Below are positions 57,374-61,773 of a stretch of 61,815 nucleotides of DNA, piece by piece. Source of the DNA: Bacteroidota bacterium (GTDB lineage: Bacteria; Bacteroidota; Rhodothermia; Rhodothermales; UBA10348); contig JADFHF010000021.1 of assembly GCA_022567305.1 (NCBI GenBank), positions 1 to 61,815 of the forward strand. Reading direction: 5' to 3'. A program made the translations under genes and the position numbers. Each line of letters opens with the position of its first letter. Within the stretch, counting starts at the first letter, position 1. The notes beneath the pieces were generated by a model. The model was given only the letters and a program-made list of their open reading frames with translations, made no database searches and had not been told where the DNA came from.

Positions 57374-57456
57374 GCCCGAGTGGCGGAATTGGTAGACGCA
57401 TGCGACTCAAAATCGTATGTCCTTTGGACGTGTGGGTTCGAGTCCCACCTCGGGTA
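57374..57456 (+). tRNA. tRNA-Leu(CAA), integration target
   Basis: A class II tRNA with acceptor GCCCGAG/CTCGGGT (ending in a G-U pair), D-arm GGCGGAATTGGTAGACGC, anticodon stem TGCGA/TCGTA with loop CTCAAAA (anticodon CAA), variable arm GTCC-TTT-GGAC and T-arm GTGGG-TTCGAGT-CCCAC. No CCA is encoded. Its 3' part from the anticodon loop onward is duplicated exactly at 61704-61755. Confidence 0.96.
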
Positions 57457-57457
57457 C
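57406..57457 (+). repeat. Left copy of 52-bp direct repeat (att-like, in tRNA-Leu)
   Basis: This is the 3' half of tRNA-Leu(CAA) plus one base. It is identical over 52 bases to 61704-61755, with sequence diverging at once on both sides (A versus T before, G versus A after). It is the shape expected of the attachment site that keeps the tRNA intact. Confidence 0.9.
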
Positions 57458-57490
57458 GATAGGTTACACAACGAGTTACGATATCTAGTC

Positions 57491-57546
57491 GGACTACCGT
57501 GTTAGTGTAGTCCCATAGATTTACCGACTACTCTTCGACTACTCTT
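57491..57546. promoter_or_regulatory. Possible integrase arm-type sites next to the tRNA
   Basis: GGACTAC (57491-57497) and GTAGTCC (57507-57513) form an inverted repeat, followed by an 11-base tandem CGACTACTCTT twice (57525-57546). The shared GACTAC core occurs four times within 56 bases, just inside the element. The related sequence GAGTAGTAG closes the window at 61807-61815, outside the other repeat copy. A role as integrase-binding arms is inferred. Confidence 0.3.
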
Positions 57547-57551
57547 TCAAC

Positions 57552-57728
57552 ATGGACAGCGCAGATAAAAAGGATTTGATCGAATCAATAATGTCTTATT
57601 TGGATTGGGCAATTGAGAACAATCACTTTCAGATACTTGACTTCAACCTAATAATATGCGCTTGTTGTGCGTCGGGCCAGGTATTTGTTATCGGACGAAG
57701 ACCTGCTCGCGAGCATCGGATACGTTGA
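57552..57728 (+). CDS. Small hypothetical ORF at the tRNA-proximal end of the island
   Basis: An ATG at 57552 opens 58 codons (MDSADKKDLIESIMSYLDWA start, ending REHRIR). The following stretch to 57768 has coding-like sequence in another frame (LLSDEDLLASIGYVENRNDA), without a start, ending at a TAG. This looks like a decayed gene with a frame change rather than two genes. No family is recognised. Confidence 0.3.
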   Translation: MDSADKKDLIESIMSYLDWAIENNHFQILDFNLIICACCASGQVFVIGRRPAREHRIR

Positions 57729-57791
57729 AAATCGCAACGATGCCCTTCGGGATGCTGTCACCATCTAGGACGGCGTTTAAGCATACCAATG

Positions 57792-60626
57792 CTAATCGTA
57801 TCGTAATGAATCGACAGGATTAGATAGTGATGCCCGCAGTGCCTGTCCGCCGACCGAAATGATGACTAGCGCGAGTGTGATGGCAGCAGTGATGAGGAAG
57901 ACTTCCGCGCCGATCTCCGTTCGGTAGGCGAAATTGTCGAGCCATTTATGCATCAAAATGTATCCGACTGGCCAAGCCATGCCATTTCCGATTAAGAGCA
58001 GCCAAAAAAAGCGTGTTGACAGGAGTTGAATTACGCTTTGAACCGAGGCACCAAGTGTTTTGCGAATACCGATTTCTTTTGTCCTTTGTTCGGCCATAAA
58101 AGCCGCTAGGCCAAAAAGTCCGAGGCACGCGATGATTATGGCTAGCATGGAAAAAAAGCCAAATACCTTGCTCAGCTGTTTCTCGGCTTTGAAGAGCCTA
58201 GCAAAGTCCTCGTCAAGGAATGAATAGTTAAGCGCATCGCCTGGAATGAACTCATTCCATGTTCGCTCAATTGCGGCGATTGTTTCTGAAACAGTTCCAC
58301 TTCGGAGGCGAACTAAAATCTGCGCAGGCATACCATTTGGATAAAACGGCGAAAAAATAGTAGGTTGAATTGCCGTACGCATATCGGCATATTGGAAGTC
58401 TTTCACGACTCCAACGATAGGACTATCAAAGCCCTTCGGCGTATACGCGTCTCCTTCGAGAATGGCGAGACGATCTTCAACTGTGCTGCCGATTGGAGAC
58501 TCGGGTCCAAACAGTTCTGCGGCTGTTTCGTTAATGACAAATGCTCCCATAGCGGCGTCACCAATGTTAACATTTCGCCCTGAAACAAGAGGTAGTTGAA
58601 GCGTTTCGAAAAACGCTGAGTCAATGAACTGCAGTCGAATATCGATATCGGAACCGCTAGAAGTCGTTAATGAGTTGACGTTAATCCCAAATCCATTTTC
58701 CCGTCCAGGTACAACAGAAGAAAACGATGCGCTTTGAATACCGGGTATTGCAAGAAGTTGCTGCTGGAACACGCGAAGACGTCTCCCGGTCATAAAAAAT
58801 AGCCGATCGACTTCTCCACCAGAAGCCTCAATGAGTTCCGCCTGCTCGCGCCGATTCAGCGACATCCAGTCATCGACGGTATATCCGCGCTCGGACATTA
58901 AGCCTCGCCAAGCAAAAGATTCTGCGTGCATAAATTTATTGGGTACGTTCTGAAGGACGAGCACGCGCTCGCCGTCGAATCCTAAATCTTTGTTTTGCAT
59001 GAAAGACAATTGATTGAAAACCACCACAGTTGCGACGATAAGAAGTACTGAAATAAAAAATTGAAAGATGACGAGGCCGTTGCGAAGTGAGACGCCTCGG
59101 CGGCGCGTATGCAGCGACCCACTCAGCAATTCTGCGGGGCGGAAGGCAGAAAGAAAAAAAGCCGGGTAACTTCCAGCAAGAACACCGACTGTCAACGCAA
59201 CGATGACCAATCCAGCAATGTGATACCCGTTGCCAATCGGGTCAAAGGTGATCTCGGTGCCCAGGAAATCATTAAATACGCCAAGGAAAACGACAACCAG
59301 GGCGCAGGCAATCGCCGCCGAAATTAAGCTGACAACGGTCGACTCAACAAGGAATTGGTAAATGAGTTGTTTGCGTGACGATCCGACGACCTTTCGAATA
59401 CCGACTTCTTTGATGCGGCTTGATGACCGAGCAGTCGCCAGGTTCACAAAATTGACACAAGCTAAAATGAGTATGAAAAGGGCGATAATCAAAAAGAACG
59501 TAATATTTGTTCGACTCCCACTGCGCCCAAGTGCACCCTCATACTGAGCCTCATATCGATTGTCGAGGTGCACATCCGTTAAGGCTTGGAGGCTTAGCGT
59601 CCAGCTTCGCCCAGAGTTTTTTAGTTCCTCCCAGGAAGATCCTTCTGATTTCGCGACTTCCGGACCGATATAGTCATCGACGAAAGATGGAAGTTTTTCC
59701 TCTAGTTGCTCAGGGGAAGAATATTTCGGCAGAACGATATACGTATAGCCGCCTCCCCAGCGTCCGGTTACGGCCGCACGATCCGAGGGTTTGGGCTTGA
59801 CCCGAACGAGATAGTCAAATTGAAAATGAGAATTAGTTGGCATATCTCTGGCCACAGCTGATACCGTCAAGTCAGATCTAAAAATCGTCGGTTCGGTGAT
59901 TGTAACCGTCTTGCCAATTGGATCGTCGATTCCAAACAAGAGATTGGCTGCGCTTTCGCTTATCACGATAGACTCATAATTGGGAAGTGGCTGTTGGGAA
60001 TTGCCGCTCACTATAGCGATGTCAAACAGATCGAATATCGACGGATCCACTGAATGCACAGTCTTTTCGCTAAATAATTTTTCGCCATGCTGAATCGTGT
60101 ATCGAGAATCGGTGGTGAATCGTGTTACCTGAGTTATTTCCGGGAAGTTTTCAGACAGTAATTCGCCGATCGTCCAACCAATGGCGGCAGTAGAGCCTTG
60201 TTCGCTCGGTAAATTGAAATCCTGAACTACTCGGTAAATTTGGTCAGACTTCGAAAAATCCTGATCGAAACTGTATTCGTGCTGCACGAAAAGCAGCGCA
60301 AAGGTGGTTACAGCAATACCGACAGAAAGGCCAACAACATTTAGAATCGTATATCCTTTATGAGATCGAAGCGTTCGAAGTACGGTCTTGAGATTGTTAA
60401 TAATCATCACGGTGGCCCAGTAAACGGATGCGAAGAGAAATAATGGAACGGACCTGATAACCTGGCCCCAATACCAAAGACGTGCCCACTCAGCCCTTCC
60501 GTTCTCGTGGATCCGGTTGTAGGTTTCTTCTACATCTCCAAGAACCTCATCAGCATGCACATCGTGCAGTGCTCTATCGAGAATCCACTGGGCTACTCGT
60601 GGCGGTCTGTGGCTTCTACGTTTCAT
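57792..60626 (-). CDS. FtsX/MacB-type ABC transporter permease (PadR-linked family)
   Basis: A 944-residue permease. The N-terminal part (PPRVAQWILDRALH...LGDVEETYNRI) is the permease-prefix domain found in PadR-linked proteins, followed by two MacB periplasmic-core/FtsX units: about 80-470 (LRSHKGYTILNVVGLSVGIA, LATARSSSRIKEVGIRKVVG) and about 490-940 (FQFFISVLLIVATVVVFNQL, AEQRTKEIGIRKTLGASV). I chose ATG 60626, which overlaps the PadR stop in an ATGA junction. No cognate ATPase gene is present. Such permeases are thought to move peptides or lipids in response to envelope stress; the substrate is unknown. Confidence 0.88.
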   Translation of the reverse strand: MKRRSHRPPRVAQWILDRALHDVHADEVLGDVEETYNRIHENGRAEWARLWYWGQVIRSVPLFLFASVYWATVMIINNLKTVLRTLRSHKGYTILNVVGLSVGIAVTTFALLFVQHEYSFDQDFSKSDQIYRVVQDFNLPSEQGSTAAIGWTIGELLSENFPEITQVTRFTTDSRYTIQHGEKLFSEKTVHSVDPSIFDLFDIAIVSGNSQQPLPNYESIVISESAANLLFGIDDPIGKTVTITEPTIFRSDLTVSAVARDMPTNSHFQFDYLVRVKPKPSDRAAVTGRWGGGYTYIVLPKYSSPEQLEEKLPSFVDDYIGPEVAKSEGSSWEELKNSGRSWTLSLQALTDVHLDNRYEAQYEGALGRSGSRTNITFFLIIALFILILACVNFVNLATARSSSRIKEVGIRKVVGSSRKQLIYQFLVESTVVSLISAAIACALVVVFLGVFNDFLGTEITFDPIGNGYHIAGLVIVALTVGVLAGSYPAFFLSAFRPAELLSGSLHTRRRGVSLRNGLVIFQFFISVLLIVATVVVFNQLSFMQNKDLGFDGERVLVLQNVPNKFMHAESFAWRGLMSERGYTVDDWMSLNRREQAELIEASGGEVDRLFFMTGRRLRVFQQQLLAIPGIQSASFSSVVPGRENGFGINVNSLTTSSGSDIDIRLQFIDSAFFETLQLPLVSGRNVNIGDAAMGAFVINETAAELFGPESPIGSTVEDRLAILEGDAYTPKGFDSPIVGVVKDFQYADMRTAIQPTIFSPFYPNGMPAQILVRLRSGTVSETIAAIERTWNEFIPGDALNYSFLDEDFARLFKAEKQLSKVFGFFSMLAIIIACLGLFGLAAFMAEQRTKEIGIRKTLGASVQSVIQLLSTRFFWLLLIGNGMAWPVGYILMHKWLDNFAYRTEIGAEVFLITAAITLALVIISVGGQALRASLSNPVDSLRYD

Positions 60627-60952
60627 TTCGCGCCTGCAAGACCGGCAAGGGGCCTGCTCTTCCACAGAGCATCCTGAACCCGTCGGATCTTGATTAGAGC
60701 AGCCTTACCATCAGGAGTCAATTCAAAAAAACGTTTGCTCCGTCCACCGCGATGAGGTGTTGGTTTTCCCTTGAAGGATCTGACATAACCTTTGTGAGCC
60801 AGCCGGTCGAGCGGAATATAGATAGCTCCAATCGACCAATCGTAGCCGGAGACGTCTGTGAGATGATCTCGAATAGCTGCACCATAAGCATTGTCCTGCA
60901 AATTCCAGATGGACAACAGGATAAGCTCTTCGGTGCGTGTCAGGAACGACAT
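60623..60952 (-). CDS. PadR family transcriptional regulator
   Basis: A 109-residue winged-helix regulator: SFLTRTEELILLSIWNLQDN, YGAAIRDHLTDVSGYDWSIG, GAIYIPLDRLAHKGYV (recognition helix) and GRSKRFFELTPDGKAAL (wing). It precedes the permease gene with a 4-base overlap, so it probably controls its own operon. PadR proteins usually bind inverted repeats near their own promoter and respond to small molecules. Confidence 0.93.
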   Translation of the reverse strand: MSFLTRTEELILLSIWNLQDNAYGAAIRDHLTDVSGYDWSIGAIYIPLDRLAHKGYVRSFKGKPTPHRGGRSKRFFELTPDGKAALIKIRRVQDALWKSRPLAGLAGAK

Positions 60953-61620
60953 TTTGATGCTCTTCGATAGTTGATCTTTGATATAATCATAATTCTAAAA
61001 CAAATATTATACAATTGCAAATATTTTCCTTAAAACATTGAGAATAATAAAACCGACAAGACTGTAATGACGAGTGTGATAGGTCTGACGTCGAAGAAAT
61101 ATCGCCAGTCTATTCCTTGTTTTCCGTACTCAGCTCGACGTCAGTTCTGGTCAATCCCCGACGCATAACATGTATTCTATGAACCCAGCGTTTGGGACGC
61201 TGTTAAATACTATTGGTCCATCTTTATGTCAAATGTAACGGACACAGCTTTTTTGATGCAAGAAAGAAGGTCCACATATCGCATATGCCACATATCACAT
61301 CGTCTATCTATCACGCCGCCACTTAGCGCCGAATCCACAGATCACTCCCGCAACATAGCGTGCGCACCACATGTCGCGATACAACAATCTGAATTGATTT
61401 AAGATGACGGAAAGAGATAATTGATATCGTCATTTGCGTCATCACTTTGAGAACCCGTCTCAGCGAATCAGGCGAAGGAAGGAAATTGAAAATCCGTCCG
61501 CCCCGGGCGCCGAACTGTCTCGTCTTCTCAGTTTAGTCTGCCTTTTCAATCTCAGAGCGAATGGAAATTGCACTTCCGCCCAGCATCCCTTTTCTTTAGC
61601 CGAACCTCACGTGCATCACC
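60953..61620. other. Gene-poor region between padR and the kinase fragment
   Basis: I see no supported gene here. The first part (about 60985-61060) is AT-rich and probably holds the padR promoter. A 10-base inverted repeat CTGACGTCGA/TCGACGTCAG (61085-61094 and 61135-61144, 40-base spacer), each half containing the GACGTC palindrome, and a direct repeat CCACATATC (61272-61280 and 61288-61296) are possible regulator sites. Confidence 0.4.
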
Positions 61621-61773
61621 ATGGTTGGCAAATCACTTTCCCATTACAAGATCACCGCTGAGCGGGGCCGTGGTGGCATGGGAATCGTCTACCAGGCGGA
61701 AGTCTCAAAATCGTATGTCCTTTGGACGTGTGGGTTCGAGTCCCACCTCGGGTACAAAATGGATTTCGACTGA
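61621..61773 (+). pseudogene. 5' stub of a Ser/Thr protein kinase gene fused to a tRNA-Leu fragment
   Basis: The ATG at 61621 reads VGKSLSHYKITAERGRGGMG and IVYQAEV, the start of a Pkn-type (Hanks) kinase through the glycine-rich ATP loop (GRGGMG). At codon 28-29 the reading passes straight into the 52-base tRNA-Leu repeat and runs to a TGA at 61771-61773. Only about 27 of the 270 or more residues of a kinase domain are left, with no catalytic Lys beyond the loop. The truncation point coincides with the edge of the repeat, so the rest of the gene was lost by recombination at this site. Confidence 0.7.
61704..61755 (+). repeat. Right copy of 52-bp direct repeat (att-like tRNA-Leu fragment)
   Basis: Exact copy of 57406-57457: anticodon loop, variable arm, T-arm and acceptor 3' strand of tRNA-Leu(CAA), without the 5' half. 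It cannot fold as a tRNA. It marks the far boundary of a 4.3-kb tract and is the displaced target fragment expected after insertion of an element in the tRNA. Confidence 0.9.

Follow-up and report, generated by a model that had tools for sequence, protein, structure and literature searches.

The 61,815-bp window, which is the entire contig C89 of its genome (G000), ends in a tract that we consider a probable non-autonomous unit, inserted site-specifically in a tRNA-Leu(CAA) gene and carrying exchangeable cargo, in this case an integron platform without the integron integrase gene intI. Site-specific insertion is well supported; the crossover chemistry, a helper recombinase and present-day mobility are inferred. 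The first-pass annotation had left three options, a remnant, a non-autonomous element or the scar of an exchange, and the second of them fits best.

Borders of the tract

The tract is bounded by an exact direct repeat of 52 bp, with mismatches immediately outside both copies. The repeat runs from base 1 of the seven-base anticodon loop (CTCAAAA) to the 3' end of the tRNA, and the 3.76-Mb assembly of G000 holds two copies of it, both placed here:

57374-57457, plus strand: tRNA-Leu(CAA), folded by ARAGORN; functional copy, completed at the left junction
57406-57457, plus strand: left 52-bp repeat, attL-type core
61704-61755, plus strand: right 52-bp repeat, attR-type core, bare 3' part of the tRNA

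The first-pass annotation had described a 52-bp identity that stops at once on either side, one copy completing a folded tRNA and the other a bare 3' fragment. Coordinates and flanking mismatches bore out the former, and the ARAGORN fold of the tRNA-Leu(CAA) at the left copy the latter. This layout, with an intact tRNA at one end and its 3' fragment, equally oriented, at the opposite end, is that of a tRNA-integrated island. Since the window is an entire contig, just 60 bp lie 3' of the right repeat.

Genes of the tract and the search for a recombinase

Four coding features were placed between the repeats:

57552-57728, plus strand: truncated small ORF, MDSADKKDLIESIMSYLDWAIENNHFQILD..., longer in the corresponding unit of G005 (contig C83)
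57792-60665, minus strand: intact permease of 957 aa with MacB_PCD and FtsX twice
60623-60952, minus strand: intact PadR-family regulator (PF03551), overlapping the permease gene
61621-61703, plus strand: N-terminal stub of a Ser/Thr kinase, MVGKSLSHYKITAERGRGGMGIVYQAE, 27 codons including the glycine-rich loop, truncated at the right repeat

The regulator passed the gathering cut-off of PF03551 (39.1 bits against 27). The permease scored 293.8 bits against the ADOP model TIGR03434, below the NCBI cut-off of 622.3, and was 35% identical to another PadR-linked permease within G000; judged by sequence it is ADOP-like, and its function is a predicted one. The small ORF gave no significant match to Pfam. 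The kinase stub terminates precisely where the right repeat begins. The content list of the first-pass annotation stood as regards PadR, permease, kinase stub and the missing integrase, while its reading of the small ORF as decay did not, as this ORF sits in a conserved end of the element.

No recombinase was found in the tract, either by Pfam searches of the main ORFs or by tblastn with about 30 recombinases, and a PF00589 search of G000 gave no match on contig C89; the tract thus has no integrase inside, where a tRNA-integrated island would have one. Tyrosine recombinases were listed in six genomes (G000, G005, G012, G009, G014 and G008) and compared in part. One recombinase family was common to G000 and G005 (67-79%), and none of its members was seen at tRNA-Leu(CAA). 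A recombinase of G014 situated 10.4 kb from tRNA-Leu(CAA) was considered as helper, but no 52-bp repeat was detected there. For these two reasons we name no helper, and that no recombinase is tied to the tRNA-Leu(CAA) site counts against our explanation. Neither an excised circle nor a pair of empty and occupied sites of the same strain was seen, which counts against it too. On contig C121 of G005 (L208 330-2751) three adjacent tyrosine recombinases lie on one strand, resembling a recombinase-in-trio element.

Conserved ends and tandem units in relatives

A matching tRNA was present at E<=1e-8 in 37 of the 41 genomes searched. The first-pass annotation had proposed to compare presence and absence at tRNA-Leu(CAA) with the same borders, and this check was carried out. 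Past the 52 bp, the left end was found at the same tRNA in three of the 27 family genomes (G000, G005 and G012) and not in the remaining 24, and the right junction was found twice in G005. The latter genome, Bacteroidetes bacterium B25T1L10, is a MAG of another genus in the same family as G000. Its comparison with the window delimited two ends:

57458-57636: conserved left end of the unit, from comparison with G005
61367-61703: conserved right end of the unit, from comparison with G005 contigs C83 and C186

At offsets 66-213 past the tRNA (148 bp) G000 and G005 were 98.6% identical, against 70.6% in the upstream flank; between G005 and G012 the first 107 bp past the tRNA reached 97% and the flank 71%. 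The right end was 88% identical to C83 over 389 bp, and its last ~140 bp were 90% identical to C186, within a match of 190 bp. Ends this similar beside flanks of about 71% between genera indicate, therefore, that movement or exchange of the ends is recent by comparison with the chromosome. The left end holds two tandem copies of CGACTACTCTT (57525-57546), which may be arm-site-like. No viral contigs carrying the left end were found. The right flank of C186 was tried as the native flank of the window and rejected, as G000 has no matching neighbourhood.

One T-stem pair of the core follows the host, being T-A in G000 and G-C in G005. This counts against our explanation, in that both cores of G000 have the host allele and a recent transfer from G005 would need conversion. 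The shortness of the right flank, 60 bp up to the contig end, counts against it as well.

In G005 the tRNA is on contig C174, while C83 and C186 each carry one further copy of the 52 bp, immediately preceded by the same kinase start. The cargo of C83 between the same ends is CopA, CopB and a DUF2231 protein, a copper operon. The first 205 bp of C83 recur at 95% after its own right-hand core, forming a second left end, and the units are therefore in tandem. We infer the order of the units, because no end overlaps were found between the G005 contigs. Tandem accretion with related elements, as in cis-mobilizable elements (CIMEs), was thus found in G005 (C174, C83 and C186) and not in the window. 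None of the units contained an integrase. In the one on C83 a relic of a tyrosine recombinase survives, 37 codons long and 81% to an intact protein of 439 aa on G000 contig C80; it lies directly against the right end, at the very point where the similarity to the window sets in.

The origin of the right end could be traced to kinase genes. Positions 61566-61700 match about 15 kinase genes of G000 at their starts, and positions 61385-61692 match a full kinase gene on G005 contig C101 (77%). The right end therefore consists of the first part of a kinase gene of the lineage, with DNA from upstream of it, fused to the tRNA fragment, and the fusion is common to G000 and G005. Ser/Thr kinase genes make up an expanded family with conserved upstream DNA and start regions in G000, G005 and G008 (L060, L075, L077, L078, L079, L101, L261). 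A kinase stub on G000 contig C38 was rejected as a further element end, as it adjoins an IS3-type transposase fragment. On G000 contig C31 (L206 4787-5701) the 3' part of a C80-type tyrosine recombinase is followed ~85 bp later by a truncated kinase start, MIGQTVSHYQIEEQLGQGGMG.

Integron parts of the cargo

The first-pass reading of the tract had missed two things, the tandem units with other cargo and the nature of the cargo in the window. The latter is framed by three features:

57636-57670, minus strand: 5' half of an attC site (R''-L''), GCACAACAAGCGCATATTATTAGG..., by similarity to integron attC of relatives
61163-61182, minus strand: attI-like site, TCATAGAATACATG^TTATGC, insertion point of the first cassette, reading into PadR-permease
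61183-61330, minus strand: attI-platform leader with GATATGTGG repeats and a Pc-like promoter, by alignment with intI-adjacent leaders

The order on the minus strand is thus attI, PadR-permease and attC half, and on sequence grounds PadR and permease would constitute an integron cassette on a platform lacking intI. The patterns of the attC half site and of attI each matched once in 61.8 kb and not at all in 100 shuffles. The 35-bp motif at 57636-57670 was met again in six of the order's 114 genomes, all six belonging to the family, with no match for the reversed control. Nine attC sites in G008 start with RYATAACAAGCGCATTTT and end with CCAGCCG^TTATGC or close variants; the motif is the first half of the attC sites of this family's integrons. 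The covariance model R1 found no complete attC in the window, and the half site had a DNA fold z of -0.8. A complete attC within 57458-57675 was considered and rejected. Only half an attC is claimed, because folds on either strand were no better than those of shuffles, and because G005 does not conserve the R'-like ACACAAC next to the core. The cassette may therefore no longer be excisable, a further point against our explanation.

With a profile built from six intI-adjacent attI regions the site in the window was the best match (E 0.0027; next 1.6), and a broader profile, from which the window was excluded and which was trained partly on leader copies of G000, gave it an E of 2.3e-8. The leader contains a promoter-like pair, TTGCAT (61261-61256) and TACATT (61237-61232), with the aligned form TTGCA-TACA(C/T)T, which we regard as a putative Pc-like promoter. 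A tblastn search with eight IntI gave just a weak match of 15 residues. Compared with a complete integron, the tract accordingly has attI (by similarity) and a predicted promoter (by alignment), and lacks intI and a complete attC; nor does it have the two or more attC sites without intI of a CALIN.

Elsewhere in the family, IntI scored above the family cut-off in 13 of the 27 genomes, and attC arrays are present in relatives. Contig C25 of G008 (L143) bears a chromosomal integron with intI, attI and the nine attC. Apart from a relic on C8 (L145 8697-8894), a search of G000 at the threshold applied gave no intI. The relic is the C-terminal part of IntI, ~86% to the IntI of G005 over 56 residues, with an attC and two attI-like sites nearby. 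Copies of the promoter-attI leader are dispersed through G000, about 15 of them counting that of the window (C42, C53, C64 twice, C74 twice, C93 three times, C23, C106, C100 and C8 twice). The promoter-attI loci are L252, L253, L254, L255, L256, L257, L260, L047, L145 and window positions 61163-61330. Similarity between the aligned copies ends at G^TTA, the cassette insertion point. The scattered modules may be gene-capture sites or no more than copied promoters; if functional, they would provide many gene-capture points per genome, with one integrase serving all. On G000 contig C42 (L047 1011-3655) tRNA-Leu(CAG) is followed by leader and attI-like site and two cassettes with complete attC, without intI, making this a second intI-less platform adjoining a tRNA-Leu.

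Proposed mechanism and alternatives

We propose that a tyrosine recombinase outside the unit, acting in trans or since lost, would cross over at the anticodon loop. The unit would bring its own 3' part of the tRNA, restoring the tRNA on the left and leaving the 3' fragment on the right. Units of this kind would have fixed ends, the left one after the core and the right one with the kinase 5' stub before the core, around exchangeable cargo, and could stack in tandem at one tRNA, as in G005. The unit would behave like a CIME or a decayed genomic island, and att-type ends around DNA without integration or transfer genes were indeed found. The cargo in the window would be Pc-attI, then one cassette of two genes (PadR and the MacB/FtsX permease) with half an attC at its end, and IntI, present in relatives and as a relic in G000, probably captured the cassette before intI was lost. 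A wider scheme, which we consider unlikely, would have two layers of capture: scattered intI-less promoter-attI modules loaded by IntI in trans, at least one of them packaged in tRNA-Leu(CAA) units that are interchangeable, form tandem stacks and cross between genera.

Three other explanations were weighed. It is possible, if somewhat doubtful, that the tract is a fixed remnant, that is, an old complete island which lost its integrase and transfer genes by deletion and is now inert, the shared ends being due to homologous exchange between relics rather than to site-specific mobility. The truncated small ORF, the kinase stub, the half attC, the missing intI and the recombinase relic in the sister unit would all suit such a history. 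However, the left end is near-identical between genera with neighbours at about 71% and both 52-bp cores are intact, which speaks for recent movement or exchange, and PadR and permease are intact too. It is very unlikely that the integron integrase itself placed the cassette beside the tRNA and that the 52-bp repeat is secondary. Such an event would agree with the attI and attC half inside the tract and with the intI-less attI platform beside tRNA-Leu(CAG) in G000, but IntI crosses over at G^TT of attI or attC and the borders of the repeat have no such site, the C83 unit of G005 shares these borders and has neither attI nor attC, and the position of the repeat at the anticodon loop is the textbook one (PMC4383910). 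Finally, the 52-bp repeat is neither chance nor assembly artefact: a misassembly, or two real tRNA copies misjoined, might be suspected where the contig stops 60 bp past the right repeat and G005 contigs break nearby too, but it is scarcely credible, because the junction of kinase stub and core is present twice in an independent MAG of another genus, a result that contradicts the artefact of two tRNAs envisaged in the first-pass annotation, and the right copy comprises part of a tRNA only, the assembly holding no more than these two copies.

Comparison with known systems

The unit that we propose, non-autonomous and inserted in tRNA-Leu(CAA), resembles the CIMEs of ICE/IME families, e.g., those related to ICESt1 (PMC5704250), in its attL/attR-type ends, the lack of integration and transfer genes and the tandem accretion. 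What defines a CIME is that it has lost its integration genes and retained its att sites, and CIMEs commonly accrete in tandem (PMC5704250). The hosts, ends and cargo of the unit are, however, unrelated to theirs, its mobilization is a presumed one, and no ICE or IME with its ends was found. The ssrA islands of Dehalococcoides, 15 of them without integration modules, are alike in standing in tandem at an RNA gene, in 3'-end repeats, in a conserved motif just before the repeat and in differing adaptive cargo (PMC3146451). They differ in that a serine recombinase acts at the T-loop of the tmRNA and the repeat is 20 bp long; in the unit the repeat has 52 bp and starts at the anticodon loop, and a kinase gene start forms the conserved end on the right.

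Class A anticodon-centred tDNA islands, as defined with Islander (PMC4383910), share with the unit a restored tRNA, a displaced 3' fragment and a crossover in the anticodon loop. SGI1 with In104 is likewise a site-specific island with integron attI and cassettes, for which tandem arrays were observed, but it encodes an integrase and carries a class 1 integron, while the unit has neither int nor intI (PMC2297512). As in CALIN and In0, a component of the integron is missing; CALIN are attC clusters and In0 are integrases without attC (PMC9024848), whereas the unit consists of attI, one cassette and half an attC. Units of this kind would be missed by Islander, which demands an internal integrase and would filter them out (PMC4383910), and by IntegronFinder, which seeks intI or attC arrays. 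The kind of element is already known, and what is new is that interchangeable tRNA units lacking an integrase are combined with an attI cassette that lacks intI. It would join, in an uncultured lineage of Bacteroidota type, one tRNA unit without integrase that holds an integron cassette with its own promoter-attI and a sister unit whose cargo is copper resistance.
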